From: a virus | Direction: 5' to 3' (one strand) | DNA length: 24,463 nt | Virus record (IMG/VR): IMGVR_UViG_3300025810_000080 | Location: 1 to 24,463 of that record | Part shown: in pieces, positions 1 through 21,023 of the stretch | Position numbering within the stretch: the first letter of the stretch is position 1 | Layout of the letters: each line of letters opens with the position of its first letter | Made by a program: the position numbers and the translations under genes | Notes under the pieces: model-generated | The model's database searches: none | Told to the model about the DNA's origin: nothing | The model's input: the letters and a program-made list of their open reading frames with translations, nothing else

Positions 1-5
1 ATGGC

Positions 6-34
6 TTGACAAGCACCCCCTTTTCATGCATAAC
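6..34 (+). promoter_or_regulatory. Candidate sigma70-type promoter P1
   Basis: A perfect TTGACA (6-11) is followed after 17 bp by CATAAC (29-34), which matches four of six bases of TATAAT. An ACCCCC/GGGGGT inverted repeat (15-20 and 38-43) overlaps the element. The first nucleotides could also be the tail of an upstream gene cut by the window edge. Confidence 0.4.
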
Positions 35-53
35 TGTGGGGGTAAGGGGGGCT

Positions 54-191
54 TAGTTAAACTATTAAGTAATAAAACTTAGATATAGTATAACTATAGT
101 AGTTTAAACTTAAGAAAGTAGCTTGACACAATAGTTAAACTATACTATTATTACTTAATAAGTAGTTTAAACTTAGATATAGTTAAACTAT
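54..191. repeat. Reiterated short palindromes in AT-rich leader
   Basis: The 12-mer TAGTTAAACTAT occurs exactly three times, at 54-65, 132-143 and 180-191, and its core TAGTTAAACTA is a perfect 11-bp palindrome. A related element, TAGTTTAAACTTA, containing the palindrome GTTTAAAC, occurs at 100-112 and 163-175. ACTTAGATATAGT occurs at 77-89 and 171-183. Degenerate relatives continue to about 275. The stretch is non-coding and sits among promoter-like sequences. Operators, a replication-initiator binding array or a transcription-factor landing zone are all possible, and the sequence does not decide between them. Confidence 0.7.
123..151 (+). promoter_or_regulatory. Strong sigma70-type promoter P2 in leader
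   Basis: A perfect TTGACA at 123-128, an exact 17-bp spacer and TATTAT at 146-151 (five of six consensus bases) form a near-ideal host sigma70-type promoter. One TAGTTAAACTAT palindrome (132-143) lies inside the spacer, where a bound regulator would block RNA polymerase. The inferred start is near 158, which leaves about 140 nt of untranslated leader before the first gene and fits transcription of the lysis and small-gene block. Confidence 0.65.
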
Positions 192-289
192 CTTATATCT
201 TAACTACATATAAAGTAATATATGATAGTTAGAACTATATAGTTATACTATAACACTTATAACTATTAATACTTGTAGTAATAAAGTAC

Positions 290-317
290 TTGACACCCAT
301 GCAAAAAAGAGTAAAAC
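290..317 (+). promoter_or_regulatory. Candidate promoter P3 overlapping first gene start
   Basis: TTGACA at 290-295 is followed after 16 bp by TAAAAC (312-317). The same arrangement, TTGACA-N16-TAAAACTATA, is seen before the capsid gene at 12982-13013. It overlaps the start of the first CDS, so it may be fortuitous, or it may drive genes from the holins onward. Confidence 0.3.
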
Positions 318-3712: not shown

Positions 3713-3807
3713 CACATAGCGGGTATTCCAATATAGCAGTTCTAAACCTTACTGTTTTGTAGTATAACTGTACATGCCAAGAACGGCATAACACAGGAGA
3801 CTACATA
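3713..3807 (+). promoter_or_regulatory. Regulatory gap before DUF1127 gene
   Basis: This 95-nt gap carries a -10-like TATAAC (3763-3768) with only a weak -35 match 17 bp upstream. A hairpin follows, ATGCC-AAGAAC-GGCAT (3774-3789), with no U-tract. AGGAG at 3795-3799 sits 8 nt before the ATG at 3808. TGTACATGC (3769-3777) is identical to a 9-mer in the capsid leader at 13043-13051. ATAACTGT is shared with the P1 element at 30-37. A promoter with a structured 5' end is the best reading. Confidence 0.45.
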
Positions 3808-4047
3808 ATGTACTTAACATACGACTACCCAAGCCAGTTTAAAACTACCGTAATTGCTACAACCAAACGCACTCTTAAAGCTGTAGCTAAGTTTTTATCT
3901 GATATAGGTGCATCTATTGCAAGAGCACAGCAGATGAGAGCAGACTATTACTTACTGAATAACATGAGTGACAAGCAGCTTAAAGATATTGGTATTACCC
4001 GTGGTGAGATCAAGCAACGGTTCTACGGAACAGACAGTGAAACATAA
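3808..4047 (+). CDS. DUF1127 domain protein
   Basis: A 79-aa protein. Residues about 37-70 match the DUF1127 (YjiS-like) consensus: an Arg-containing helix, then YYLLNNMSDKQLKDIGITRG followed by EI. The key residues L50, M53, L58, D60, I61, G62, I63 and R65 are present. DUF1127 proteins are short and abundant in alpha- and gammaproteobacteria. Some have been linked to RNA turnover, phosphate and carbon metabolism and stress. The N-terminal 36 residues are an amphipathic, Thr/Lys-rich extension with no clear signal peptide. The gene has its own spaced AGGAG site and an upstream gap with a promoter-like element, so it may be expressed independently. A phage copy suggests modulation of a host RNA or metabolic regulator, which is inference. 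Confidence 0.85.
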   Translation: MYLTYDYPSQFKTTVIATTKRTLKAVAKFLSDIGASIARAQQMRADYYLLNNMSDKQLKDIGITRGEIKQRFYGTDSET

Positions 4048-4059
4048 GAAAGTAGTGTA

Positions 4060-4434
4060 ATGGCACGACAACTTACAGAGAATCAAGTTAAGTTCTTAGA
4101 GGTACTCTTCGATGAGGCTGGCGGTGACGTAGTGAAAGCTAAGAAGCTTGCTGGCTACAGCGATAACACGCCTACGAGGCTTATCATTGATTCTCTTAAG
4201 GATGAGATCTTCGAGGGTACTAAGACGTACATGGCACGTATTGGACCTAAGGCAGCTGTAGCGTTTGGTCAGGCTCTTATTGACCCTACAGAGCTAGGTG
4301 TAAAAGAGAAGATGGCTGCAGCCAAAGAAGTACTTGATCGTGCAGGTATTGTAAAGACGGAGCGTGTGGAGGTACAAGCCTCAGGTGGTTTGTTTATCCT
4401 CCCACCTAAAGAGCAAGATGATACGAGTAACTAA
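4060..4434 (+). CDS. Terminase small subunit
   Basis: A 124-aa protein located just upstream of the large terminase. The N-terminus (LTENQVKFLEVLFDEAGGDV followed by VKAKKLAGYSDNTPTR) is the DNA-binding helix-turn-helix arrangement typical of phage small terminases (phage-type TerS). The central helices (YMARIGPKAAVAFGQALIDP) are the likely oligomerisation region. The C-terminus ends in VQASGGLFILPPKEQDD, a motif I recall from many TerS proteins. It would recognise the packaging site and load the large subunit. It starts 12 nt after the DUF1127 gene stop, and its 3' end overlaps the next ORF by 17 nt. Confidence 0.8.
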   Translation: MARQLTENQVKFLEVLFDEAGGDVVKAKKLAGYSDNTPTRLIIDSLKDEIFEGTKTYMARIGPKAAVAFGQALIDPTELGVKEKMAAAKEVLDRAGIVKTERVEVQASGGLFILPPKEQDDTSN

Positions 4435-4870
4435 GACTAAAGAACGTGAGAGCATAGGCTACTGGATGTTGCCTAAGCCTGACTTTAAAGTAAAGAGATG
4501 GGAGAGAATCCCACGATTATCGCCTCAAGTACCATTTGGTTACGAGATAGACCCGGATGATGAGGACTGGCTTAAACCTATTACTAAAGAATTAGAGCTT
4601 TTAGTACTTGCAAAGAAGCATCTAAAGCAGTATAGTTACAGGGAAGTCAGTGCTTGGCTATCAACACAGTCAGGCAGGTATATCTCACACATGGGGTTGA
4701 AAAAGCGTATAGATGTCGAAAGAAAACGTAAGTCACTTGCTGCAATTAAACGCAAGCTTGCCCAGCGGCTCGAAAAAGCGCTCAGGCAGTACGAGATCCT
4801 CGAAAAAGAAAGACTCGGTTACTACACCTACGAAGAAGACGAACAAGACAGCAGTACCCGCCCAAGTTAA
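4418..4870 (+). CDS. HTH and coiled-coil protein preceding large terminase
   Basis: A 150-aa protein that I start at ATG 4418, inside the end of the small terminase gene; the longer open frame would overlap it by 71 nt. Residues 60-98 form a helix-turn-helix-like region (YSYREVSAWLSTQSGRYISH). Residues 102-134 form a basic coiled coil (KRKSLAAIKRKLAQRLEKAL), and the tail is acidic (EEDEQD). Its location between small and large terminase suggests a packaging co-factor or second small-terminase-like DNA binder. I recall orthologues in this position in marine phages, sometimes called small terminase. The last 52 codons are overprinted by the large terminase start in another frame. Confidence 0.65.
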   Translation: MIRVTKTKERESIGYWMLPKPDFKVKRWERIPRLSPQVPFGYEIDPDDEDWLKPITKELELLVLAKKHLKQYSYREVSAWLSTQSGRYISHMGLKKRIDVERKRKSLAAIKRKLAQRLEKALRQYEILEKERLGYYTYEEDEQDSSTRPS

Positions 4871-6293
4871 ACCTGCAGAGTTTGACCCTATTGCTGCTCA
4901 AGAGGTGGTCTTTCAGCCTAACCCTGGGCCTCAGACACAATATCTAGCCTCTGCAGAGCGTGAGGTACTATATGGAGGCGCAGCTGGCGGAGGTAAATCG
5001 TATGCCACACTAGCAGATCCGCTACGTGACTTGAATAACCCAGACTTTAGTGGCCTACTTGTACGTCACACTACAGAAGAACTTAGGGAACTCATACAGA
5101 AGAGCCAAGATCTGTACCCTAAAGCAATACCCGGTATAAAGTGGTCTGAACGCAAATCTCAGTGGACCACACCCCGAGGAGGGCGTCTTTGGATGTCCTA
5201 CCTCGACAAAGACACAGACGTTATGCGCTACCAAGGGCAGGCGTTTAACTACGTAGCCTTCGATGAGCTTACGCAATGGCAGTCACCCTATGGGTGGAAC
5301 TACATGCGGTCTCGATTACGTAGTAGTTCCAAGGAGTTAGGCCTCTATATGAGGGCTACAACCAACCCTGGTGGTCCAGGCCACTCTTGGGTCAAGAAAA
5401 TGTTTATTGATCCTGCCCCGTCTAACACGCCTTTCTGGGCTACAGACATTGAGACAGGTGAAACGCTTACCTACCCTAAGGGTCACAGTAGAGAAGGTGA
5501 TCCACTGTTTAAACGTAGGTTTATACCTGCAAGCCTATTCGATAACCCTCACCTAGCTGAGAGTGGCGACTATGAAGCGATGCTTCTGTCTCTACCTGAG
5601 CATCAAAGGAAGCAACTACTTGAGGGTAACTGGGATGTCAACGAAGGTGCAGCCTTCCCTGAGTTCAACAGGAACATACACGTAGTTGAACCCTTTGATA
5701 TACCAGACTCTTGGACTAAGTTCAGGGCGTGTGACTACGGGTATGGCTCCTTTACGGGGGTTGTGTGGTTAGCAGTAACACCTTCAGAGCAACTCATAGT
5801 TTATAGAGAGTTGTACTGCTCTAAGGTTACAGCTACAGACTTAGCTGATATGATCTTAGAAGCTGAAGCTAGGGATGGTACTATACGCTACGGGGTGCTT
5901 GACTCCTCACTATGGCATAACCGTGGTGATACTGGTCCTTCACTAGCTGAGCAGATGAACATGAAGGGATGTCGCTGGCGTCCTTCAGATAGATCAAAAG
6001 GCTCACGTATATCTGGTAAGAACGAACTACACCGCAGACTACAGGTAGATGAATACACAGAGGAACCTAGGTTAGTATTCTTTTCTACGTGTACCAACAC
6101 AATAGCACAACTACCGTCTATCCCACTGGACAAAAGAAACCCAGAAGATGTAGATACTAATGCAGAAGACCACTTGTATGATGCGTTACGTTATGGTATA
6201 ATGACAAGACCACGTAGTTCTCTATGGGATTACAATCCAGCTAAAGATCAACGTTCTGGATTTCAAGCTTCAGACTCAACATTCGGGTATTAA
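4713..6293 (+). CDS. terL: Terminase large subunit
   Basis: A 526-aa packaging motor (ATPase plus nuclease) that translocates and cuts concatemeric DNA at the portal. Walker A is LYGGAAGGGKS (K95), Walker B is YVAFDE (D184/E185), and TTNPGGPGH at about residue 216 is the coupling motif. The nuclease domain shows the RNase H-fold acidic triad at D341 (ACDYGYGS), D397 (GVLDSS) and D486/D490 (DHLYDAL). The first 50 residues are low-complexity, Lys/Ser/Thr-rich and lie entirely inside the upstream ORF. No other ATG occurs before residue 160, so ATG 4713 is chosen; a later non-ATG start would shorten the overlap. It is followed 3 nt later by the portal gene. Confidence 0.92.
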   Translation: MSKENVSHLLQLNASLPSGSKKRSGSTRSSKKKDSVTTPTKKTNKTAVPAQVKPAEFDPIAAQEVVFQPNPGPQTQYLASAEREVLYGGAAGGGKSYATLADPLRDLNNPDFSGLLVRHTTEELRELIQKSQDLYPKAIPGIKWSERKSQWTTPRGGRLWMSYLDKDTDVMRYQGQAFNYVAFDELTQWQSPYGWNYMRSRLRSSSKELGLYMRATTNPGGPGHSWVKKMFIDPAPSNTPFWATDIETGETLTYPKGHSREGDPLFKRRFIPASLFDNPHLAESGDYEAMLLSLPEHQRKQLLEGNWDVNEGAAFPEFNRNIHVVEPFDIPDSWTKFRACDYGYGSFTGVVWLAVTPSEQLIVYRELYCSKVTATDLADMILEAEARDGTIRYGVLDSSLWHNRGDTGPSLAEQMNMKGCRWRPSDRSKGSRISGKNELHRRLQVDEYTEEPRLVFFSTCTNTIAQLPSIPLDKRNPEDVDTNAEDHLYDALRYGIMTRPRSSLWDYNPAKDQRSGFQASDSTFGY

Positions 6294-19600: not shown

Positions 19601-21023
19601 TGGTAATTCTACATCTGGTTTTAATGCTGGTGCAAATAATCTTGTAGTTGGAACTGGTAGTGGTTCAGAGGGTATTACCATATACGCAGATAACTCATCT
19701 AACAGTGCTATATTTTTTGCTGACCCTGATAGCGTAACAACTGGTCAAATAAACTACCAACACGCATCAAATGCTTTTACATTTCATACAAATGGTGGCT
19801 CAGAACGTATGCGCATCGATGCCAGCGGTAACTTGCTTTTGGGGGGTACTTCAACAACAGTTTGGAACGGGGCATCTGGTACAAAATTTATTATGTCAGG
19901 GTCTTCAAATACTATTGAAAGCCTTCAAAGTTCTACAACTAGCGCTGATCAAGGAGGCATCGTTGAAGCATACGCAACCTCGGTAACTTCTGGGTCTGCC
20001 GCCCTTGGGTCTATTGCGTTCCTTCGAGAAAACACATCAACAACTGCGCTAAACAGCTACACGGCGTTTTATACAAATAACGCTGGTACTGTTTTAGAAC
20101 GTATGCGCATCGACAGCAGCGGTAATGTAGGCATTGGGACTTCGCCTAGTACGGAATTACACGTTGCGTCATCAAGCGGGTATGCAGAATTGCGCTTGCA
20201 GGGTGCATCTGGCAGCAGTGGGTCACTAGAGTTTTACGACAGTACAACAAAACGTGGCGACATCTATGTTGACCCATCTAGCAACATTGTATTCCGCAAT
20301 ATCTCCGAAACCATGCGCATCGACAGCAGCGGTAACTTGCTGGTGGGGACTACTGATAATAATGTTAGTGACAACTCTGGTGCTTCTAGTGGTGGTATCA
20401 ATATTGGGACCGCAGGAGTTAAAGGTGTTATTTCTGCTGCGGCAGGTCAAACAGTAGCTTACCTAAACCGACTAGGTTCAGACGGCGACATTGCAGTGTT
20501 CCGCAAAGACGGCACCACGGTGGGGAGTATTGGGGTTGCTAACGGCATTTATCTTAAAATAGATACAAGTTACAGTGGCTTATTTTTTGACAGCACTAAA
20601 ATTCTACCAACAGCAAACGGGTCTCTTTCTGATGGTGGGCAGGATTTAGGACGTGGTGCAACTCGCTTCAAAGACCTCTACCTCTCTGGCGTTGGCTATG
20701 TTGGCACTATTGAAGAGGCTAACACTACACTGTCAGGTACTACGCCTAGCATTGATGCAGACACAGCAGGTAGCTTTACCTTAACTACAAGCGGTAACAC
20801 TACCTTCACTTTCGCTAGTGTAACCTCTGGACGTTCTGTTGGCTTCGTGCTAAAATTAACGGCTGGTGGTGGTCACACTATCACATGGCCTAGCTCAGTA
20901 GATTGGGCTGGCGGTACAGCCCCTGATGCCCCCGCTTCAGGTGAAACAGATGTACTGGTATTCTACACAGTAGATGGTGGTACGAACTGGTATGGTGCTT
21001 TATCTATTGACGCTGCAGCATAA
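16608..21023 (+). CDS. Long modular tail fibre
   Basis: A 1471-aa fibre. Residues 1-150 (MAGYTRQSVADIIASAIIKA, GGHKHDGSSTEGAYV) form the conserved virion-attachment end. Two NVTG/DVTG tandem tracts (residues about 152-175 and 353-380) flank three to four NGGTIDGTTIG/ATTPAAATF repeats, a triple-helix or beta-solenoid type shaft. Residues about 415-635 hold five phage-fibre repeats of ATKxYVDTxDALKL/GGTMSGDI type. An Ala/Ser-rich coiled coil follows (about 640-670). Next come a YLGDKASAPTVDNDGDALAV domain, a QIYHDGSDSYI domain and five copies of an ERMRIDSSGNVGIGT-like repeat. The last 150 residues (TITWPSSVDWAGG...TVDGGTNWYG) form the tip domain. There is no S74 autochaperone motif. It is the likely main receptor-binding protein. 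Confidence 0.88.
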   Translation: MAGYTRQSVADIIASAIIKAGPVNAEYNALRDAFAFSGGHKHDGSSTEGAYVPLIADVDAKNKVVVDTTNNRISFYSEVGGAAVEQVRIKDGAVVPVTDDDIDLGAVGAEFKNLYVDGVGYIDTLTVHENATVAGTLGVTGVLTATGGVVGNVTGNVTGNVTGDVTGDLTGDVTSTGTSTFATVDVNGGTIDGTTIGATTPAAATFSSATATTVDINGGTIDATVIGGTTPAAADFTTMDATGNASVGGTFNVTGTSTFTGAMSAGSLTTTGNSTHATVDINGGAIDGTTIGASSAAAGTFTTVTTTGQATLATADINGGTIDGSVIGGTTPQAVTGTTITANTGFTGALTGNVTGNVTGNLTGNVTGDVTGDLTGNVTAATGTTTLNDLIVNGTVDFTSTALLNVSDPTAPQHAATKSYVDTADALKLDKAGGTMSGDITMGGNTVTGLGTPSATSDAATKGYVDTSVAAVIDAAPAALDTLNELAAALGDDASFSTTVTNSIATKLPLAGGTMTGDITMGANAVTSTAAPTTDDELTRKGYVDTQDALKLDLTGGTMSGAIAMGTSKVTGLGDPTANQDAATKLYTDTQDATKLNLSGGTMTGAIDMGANKITTTYTPTDAADLTTKTYVDGILSSATDAADSAAAAATSASEAATSASNAATSEANAEAVYDNFDDRYLGDKASAPTVDNDGDALAVGALYFNTTGGAMYVWNGSSWQGVSPDLVGDTTPQLGGDLDSNGNDILFGDNDKAIFGAGSDLQIYHDGSDSYIQDAGTGDLYIRGSNLQLQDSVGYAYAVFTDLGTGGSVSLRHSGSEKLATSASGVDITGTLTSDGLTVDGSGSISTGSSGGSAASNADDFVVEAGGDGGISILTPSTNTGTLFFGDNTASNAGQIKYSHSGGSFSFVTEQNTRMVIDSSGNVGIGTSSPSGILQLQASNPDMYITSADTGQSDIYFGGVTSPTKGRIQYSDNSDLMAFWTNSTERMRITSAGNVGIGNSTSGFNAGANNLVVGTGSGSEGITIYADNSSNSAIFFADPDSVTTGQINYQHASNAFTFHTNGGSERMRIDASGNLLLGGTSTTVWNGASGTKFIMSGSSNTIESLQSSTTSADQGGIVEAYATSVTSGSAALGSIAFLRENTSTTALNSYTAFYTNNAGTVLERMRIDSSGNVGIGTSPSTELHVASSSGYAELRLQGASGSSGSLEFYDSTTKRGDIYVDPSSNIVFRNISETMRIDSSGNLLVGTTDNNVSDNSGASSGGINIGTAGVKGVISAAAGQTVAYLNRLGSDGDIAVFRKDGTTVGSIGVANGIYLKIDTSYSGLFFDSTKILPTANGSLSDGGQDLGRGATRFKDLYLSGVGYVGTIEEANTTLSGTTPSIDADTAGSFTLTTSGNTTFTFASVTSGRSVGFVLKLTAGGGHTITWPSSVDWAGGTAPDAPASGETDVLVFYTVDGGTNWYGALSIDAAA
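17061..17750 (+). repeat. Tandem VTG and NGGTIDG coding repeats in fibre
   Basis: Two blocks of AAYGTNACNGGY-like 12-nt units (17061-17126 and 17664-17750) encode N/D-V/L-T-G tetrapeptides. Between them, units of about 110-130 nt encode NGGTIDG(T/S)TIGATTPAAATF and FTGALTG-like variants. Codons vary between copies, so protein repeats are preserved while DNA identity decays. Antisense open frames here are by-products of this composition. Confidence 0.75.

Follow-up and report, generated by a model that had tools for sequence, protein, structure and literature searches.

Analysis of the viral record IMGVR_UViG_3300025810_000080 of IMG/VR showed that a small DUF1127 protein is encoded just upstream of the terminase genes, behind a conserved two-part promoter. 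The analysed stretch, here called the window, was a 24.5-kb viral contig of 24,463 nucleotides (nt) that covers part of the genome of an HMO-2011-type podovirus. The promoter (ATARCGGGTATnC - 33/34 nt - TATAACT) appears to be dedicated to DUF1127 in this phage group, as judged from its co-location with the gene and its absence from two relatives without the gene. The DUF1127 domain itself was already named in a few phage records; the dedicated promoter is what is new here. The gene and its upstream elements were located in the window as follows.

3716..3728, + strand: upstream promoter box ATAGCGGGTATTC (consensus ATARCGGGTATnC), 4 nt past the stop of the preceding gene; exact, and conserved in relatives
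3740..3745, + strand: -35-like TTCTAA, 17 nt before the -10; conserved in relatives as TnGTAA/TTCTAA, with only weak resemblance to TTGACA
3763..3768, + strand: -10 element TATAAC (TATAACT at 3763-3769), 34 nt after the box, a gap kept across loci
3774..3789, + strand: predicted leader hairpin ATGCC-AAGAAC-GGCAT, between the -10 and the ribosome binding site
3795..3799, + strand: ribosome binding site AGGAG, 8 nt before the ATG, read from the sequence and kept in relatives
3808..4047, + strand: gene of the DUF1127 protein, 79 amino acids (aa), with a predicted N-terminal amphipathic helix and the DUF1127 core at residues 36-72, supported by Pfam, alignments, a structure model and selection

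An earlier note on this DNA had described a complete DUF1127 domain at 3808-4047 with its own gap, a promoter-like TATAAC and a good ribosome site. The start, stop and strand of the gene were exact, the intergenic gap before it was 95 nt (3713-3807), and both TATAAC and AGGAG lay within that gap. The TATAAC was more than a chance resemblance, being one half of the two-part promoter. The box preceded DUF1127, with 0-3 mismatches, in 60 viral loci and in 11/11 isolates of HMO-2011-type roseophages. A blind promoter search was carried out on 2.9 million viral contigs with the box and TATAACT at any gap of 22-45 nt, the protein sequence being ignored. One form of the box yielded 110 stretches and the other at least 120, whereas a reversed-pattern control, run with one form, yielded 7 matches. 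Among the 228 loci in all, 221 had enough sequence after the box to be testable; DUF1127 lay downstream in 219 of them, including all 217 with a 33-35 nt gap. The box-to-TATAACT gap was 33-35 nt in 223/228 loci, and the 228 loci comprised 120 distinct box-to-TATAACT sequences. The fixed positions of the pattern were conserved by construction of the search, while conservation at positions left free included TTAG and TAA ahead of the spacer and AT behind TATAACT (logos of 66 and 53 distinct sequences). Whole-genome scans of 21 phages found the exact pattern once each in four HMO-2011-type roseophages, at DUF1127 and nowhere else; other roseophages had the box with mismatches, or TATAAT instead. 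In 289 alphaproteobacterial genomes the box had one match, no more than the reversed control, which is chance level.

In the window, the gene of the terminase small subunit (TerS) follows on the same strand 12 nt past DUF1127, so that read-through into TerS is likely. The box and TATAAC could therefore be the promoter of a whole late operon of DUF1127, TerS and the terminase large subunit (TerL), with DUF1127 merely as its first gene; the constant place of the gene and its promoter within the clade would also fit this. However, the promoter remained at DUF1127 where extra genes separated DUF1127 from TerS, and the box was not found in HMO-2011 and L515, the two DUF1127-less phages examined (two cases only), both of which retain the terminase. 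Because of the persistence beside DUF1127 and these two absences, the promoter was assigned to DUF1127 rather than to the terminase operon. The box likewise follows DUF1127 and not TerS, since it lies directly before the gene while anything between 614 and 2827 nt separates DUF1127 from TerL among HMO-2011-type phages. The operon explanation is possible, at well short of even probability.

This promoter escaped a standard sigma-70 scan, because its -35 is weak; comparison of relatives revealed it. The fixed gap is what would be expected of a protein bound near -53, and we infer a factor-bound box next to RNA polymerase at a weak -35 promoter. In phage promoters of the P2/P4 Ogr/delta type, the activator site lies about 55 nt ahead of the start and a good -35 is lacking. 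The promoter of the window is similar in its box centred at about -53, its clear -10 and its weak -35, but differs in box sequence, in having one copy per genome and in having one target gene; the likeness is a lead only. Among 109 distinct leaders, about 74% were predicted to form a hairpin (mean z -2.1), whose stem sequences differ; the hairpin may protect the transcript at its 5' end and is of secondary importance.

Pfam analysis of the protein revealed a match to PF06568 at residues 36-68 (E 2.4e-7) that scored 30.8 bits, above the gathering cut-off of 23.3, with the domain complete. An NCBIfam search found no model near its own cut-off, and the PHROGs matches were weak. In the alignment, R44, L58, D60, G62, R65 and I68 were invariant in the core; the DIG core motif with the following Arg and Ile (NNMSDKQLKDIGITRGEI) kept D60, G62, R65 and I68 invariant over 26 relatives. 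The length of 79 aa lies within the family size of up to about 100 aa and within the 'long' class of 72-102 aa (PMC12501420). The bacterial DUF1127 proteins CcaF1, SDP1-3 and YjiS share with the phage protein the core (L/M)(S/T)D..L.D(I/M)G..R..I, a net positive charge, small size and predicted helical structure. The phage version differs in its predicted 35-aa amphipathic N-terminal helix, its MYLTYDYPSQ start (conserved in the subtype of the window), its phage-specific promoter, the lack of linked CcsR small RNAs (sRNAs), and its arginine share of 6% (5/79 residues; 4/34 in the core), the family mean being 14% (PMC12501420). Arginine richness is a compositional tendency of DUF1127 proteins that lies outside the Pfam definition. 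The low share reduces the likeness to arginine-rich members; the family call stands, because the match passed the profile cut-off and the core motif was present.

The ratio of nonsynonymous to synonymous substitution rates (dN/dS) over 23 distinct full-length sequences was 0.15 overall, 0.045 at residues 39-72 and 0.30 at residues 1-38. By these values the core is under strong purifying selection, and this loss-free constraint shows that the gene is functional. A chance open reading frame was ruled out, the gene being conserved in 65 further viral loci. The fold expected of the family is a pair of helices exposing basic residues. The structure model comprised helices at 7-51, 55-60 and 65-76, with a predicted local distance difference test score (pLDDT) of 75 and a predicted template modelling score (pTM) of 0.42. 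A fold search of the Protein Data Bank with this model returned nothing convincing; viral structure matches included YjiS-like phage proteins with template modelling scores of 0.72-0.81 by target length, though at E 0.3. The amphipathic moment of the N-terminal helix was 0.62, a value reached by only 0.4% of shuffles. Residues 16-71 (window 3853-4020) also gave a sub-cut-off Pfam match to SAM_Ribosomal_mS41, the mS41 SAM domain (E 0.005), and the core may represent a shortened helical unit of SAM-like type.

Among isolates selected for their similar terminase, DUF1127 matches over the cut-off were present in 11/11 HMO-2011-type roseophages and in 0/7 relatives of other or unknown host, namely HMO-2011 (SAR116 host), three Pelagibacter phages, two rhizobial phages and one spring-water podovirus. 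The gene was carried by 42/43 viral contigs selected by terminase only with at least 2.5 kb upstream, a figure that concerns close relatives of the window and holds for the roseophage side of the HMO-2011-type group. On this sampling, the gene can be regarded as near-core in the HMO-2011-type roseophage clade. Its counterparts were mostly annotated as hypothetical (CRP-1, CRP-2, CRP-3, CRP-207 and others), and those of SIO1 and CRP-13 were missed in annotation; in CRP-13 the gene (L078:4047) is unannotated, and the annotated TerS there is preceded by a gap. Records that name the domain were CRP-603 gp69, Melnitz, Atu_ph07 (YjiS-like) and proteins of uncultured Caudovirales phages. CRP-603 gp69, the direct counterpart of the gene in the same position, is named in the record only. 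No paper discussing DUF1127 in roseophages was found, and none describing this promoter by title, in a literature search that covered journals outside subscription.

The window phage was placed by its TerL, which shared 81% identity with Roseobacter phages CRP-2 and CRP-603 and 72% with Puniceispirillum phage HMO-2011. According to these identities it is an HMO-2011-type podovirus, whose host most likely belongs to the marine Rhodobacteraceae; terminase, portal and capsid genes were present in the order of the group when compared with relatives. Since both best matches infect Rhodobacteraceae, the alphaproteobacterial host that the earlier note had suggested was supported, as was its placement of the gene in the late block. 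On the + strand the order was endolysin, small genes, the 95-nt gap, DUF1127, TerS, TerL, portal and major head protein, with the following neighbours.

1148-1600, + strand: endolysin
4060-4434, + strand: TerS, the next gene downstream after a 12-nt gap; 65-68% identical to putative TerS genes of CRP-207 and CRP-603
4713-6293, + strand: TerL (PF03237; phrog_979, E 1.4e-58), 81% identical to CRP-2/CRP-603

The first 290 nt of the window (1-290) were AT-rich and intergenic, with GTTAAACTAT repeats and TTGACA/TATAAC-like promoter pairs, e.g., TTGACA at 123 with TATTAT; this is perhaps a strong promoter region or an origin.

DUF1127 matches over the Pfam cut-off were also found in the Cobavirinae (CRP-4, SIO1 and P12053L), CRP-6, CRP-7, the Autographiviridae phage CRP-361, Ruegeria phage V10 (two), Sinorhizobium phage phiM12, Agrobacterium phage Atu_ph07 (two) and Methylophilales phage Melnitz. 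The gene lay in the MazG/ribonucleotide reductase interval in Cobavirinae, at the genome end after DNA maturase B in CRP-361, and among tRNA genes in V10. Because these places differ, several acquisitions are favoured and a role in packaging is disfavoured. A packaging or virion-associated protein working with the adjacent terminase would fit the fixed place that the gene keeps in HMO-2011-type phages, some 600 to 2800 nt before TerL; however, no constant packaging link was seen at the other sites, and bacterial DUF1127 proteins form a cytosolic/membrane regulator family, so this role is very unlikely. In SIO1 and its relatives, the unannotated DUF1127 lies near PhoH in the same interval (L071:2932-3114; NC_002519.1 about 19995-20177), and cobavirus-type relatives were encoded in 170 viral stretches. 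The V10 matches (vB_RpoS-V10, L185:2332-2629) form a tandem pair, and the two genes of Atu_ph07 lie far from each other.

The closest host DUF1127 proteins found had the core motif alone in common with the window protein. No near-identical host donor was found in genome contigs (one weak Bradyrhizobium match), in 288 alphaproteobacterial genomes or in plasmids. In the tree of phage and host domains, the HMO-2011-type rows clustered, with two long-branch host rows inside; its 53 columns are too few for dating or counting acquisitions, and its hosts, chosen as best matches, are a biased sample. A role as a decoy or as an extra copy of a host regulator, put forward in the earlier note, is conjectural. 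Because host proteins share the core motif only and HMO-2011-type proteins group mostly together, the window DUF1127 looks like an old phage lineage rather than a recent host copy. DUF1127 genes occur in many alphaproteobacteria, from which a functionless gene could recently have been captured; against this stand the core dN/dS, the near-universal presence in the clade, the dedicated promoter and the missing near-identical host gene, which make such a capture extremely improbable. One alphaproteobacterial DUF1127 protein (host locus L222) grouped with phage locus L064 (95/92), which may reflect a prophage gene or long-branch attraction.

Published work does connect DUF1127 with nutrient responses and RNA turnover, as given in the earlier note, but disagrees on the target. 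For CcaF1 of R. sphaeroides, the work describes RNA binding and a part in the maturation and turnover of sRNAs alongside RNase E (PMC10253847). The SDPs of Agrobacterium and YjiS of E. coli are PhoR-binding proteins that damp the uptake of phosphate, and the SDPs can be substituted by CcaF1 (PMC12501420). In Salmonella, YjiS is located at the inner membrane, with a reported interaction with the SsrA sensor kinase and no RNA binding (PMC11707872).

We tentatively favour, at somewhat less than even probability, a host-takeover regulator: a phage lineage within the family DUF1127 (YjiS/CcaF1) that mimics host DUF1127 at a PhoR-type kinase. Host RNA polymerase, probably helped by a box-binding factor, would transcribe DUF1127 independently of the neighbouring late genes, and the product would occupy the target of the DUF1127 proteins that the host itself makes. 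This target would most likely be a PhoR-type inner-membrane sensor kinase, with the amphipathic N-terminal helix resting on the membrane and the basic core contacting an acidic region of PhoR, so that host phosphate-starvation signalling would be held in a phage-favourable state. The repeated presence of DUF1127 in unrelated alphaproteobacterial phages speaks for such a regulator. If PhoR is the target, the protein would resemble MgrB and SafA, small bacterial modulators of sensor kinases (cited in PMC12501420), as a small membrane-associated protein that tunes a histidine kinase; those act on PhoQ from the membrane/periplasm, and the likeness concerns the way of working only.

Several points weigh against this host-takeover reading. 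The arginine share is low, the structure model is only moderate, and several relatives of 47-52 aa are without the long N-terminal helix. Known DUF1127 proteins damp phosphate uptake (PMC12501420), and the benefit of this for a phage in phosphate-poor sea water is not evident unless the effect is opposite. CcaF1, which belongs to the likely host family, binds RNA (PMC10253847). This last point favours a CcaF1-like factor that would bind RNA and, with RNase E, alter the stability of host or phage transcripts, and so does the more basic charge of phage cores (mean net +2) relative to sampled host cores (about 0). Against RNA binding stand the result for Salmonella YjiS and the lack of a CcsR-like sRNA signal beside the gene, where only 12 nt separate it from the next gene and no linked sRNA, no Rfam match and no excess of the anti-Shine-Dalgarno motif CCTCCTCCC were found. 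As the target, PhoR or another sensor kinase is a tentative first choice, at somewhat less than even probability; RNA or RNase E is somewhat less likely, and some other target is given the same weight as RNA.

The phage DUF1127 and its private box, read by some factor, possibly rewire PhoR-type signalling or RNA turnover in infected Roseobacter hosts, in which case the DUF1127 genes of unrelated phages would be parallel inventions of one takeover strategy; we put this forward with some reserve. Roseobacter hosts are major marine heterotrophs. HMO-2011-type phages have been described as dominant in the ocean and widespread there (PMC9038755). The dedicated promoter offers a ready handle, being a one-copy DNA element with a single target gene and a putative binding factor, and the phage proteins are natural variants for the question of whether the domain acts on proteins or RNA. 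A near-core phage gene from a family that controls phosphate uptake and RNA turnover would tie infection to nutrient physiology with no metabolic enzyme involved, and these results suggest that the virus steers host physiology through a DUF1127 of its own.
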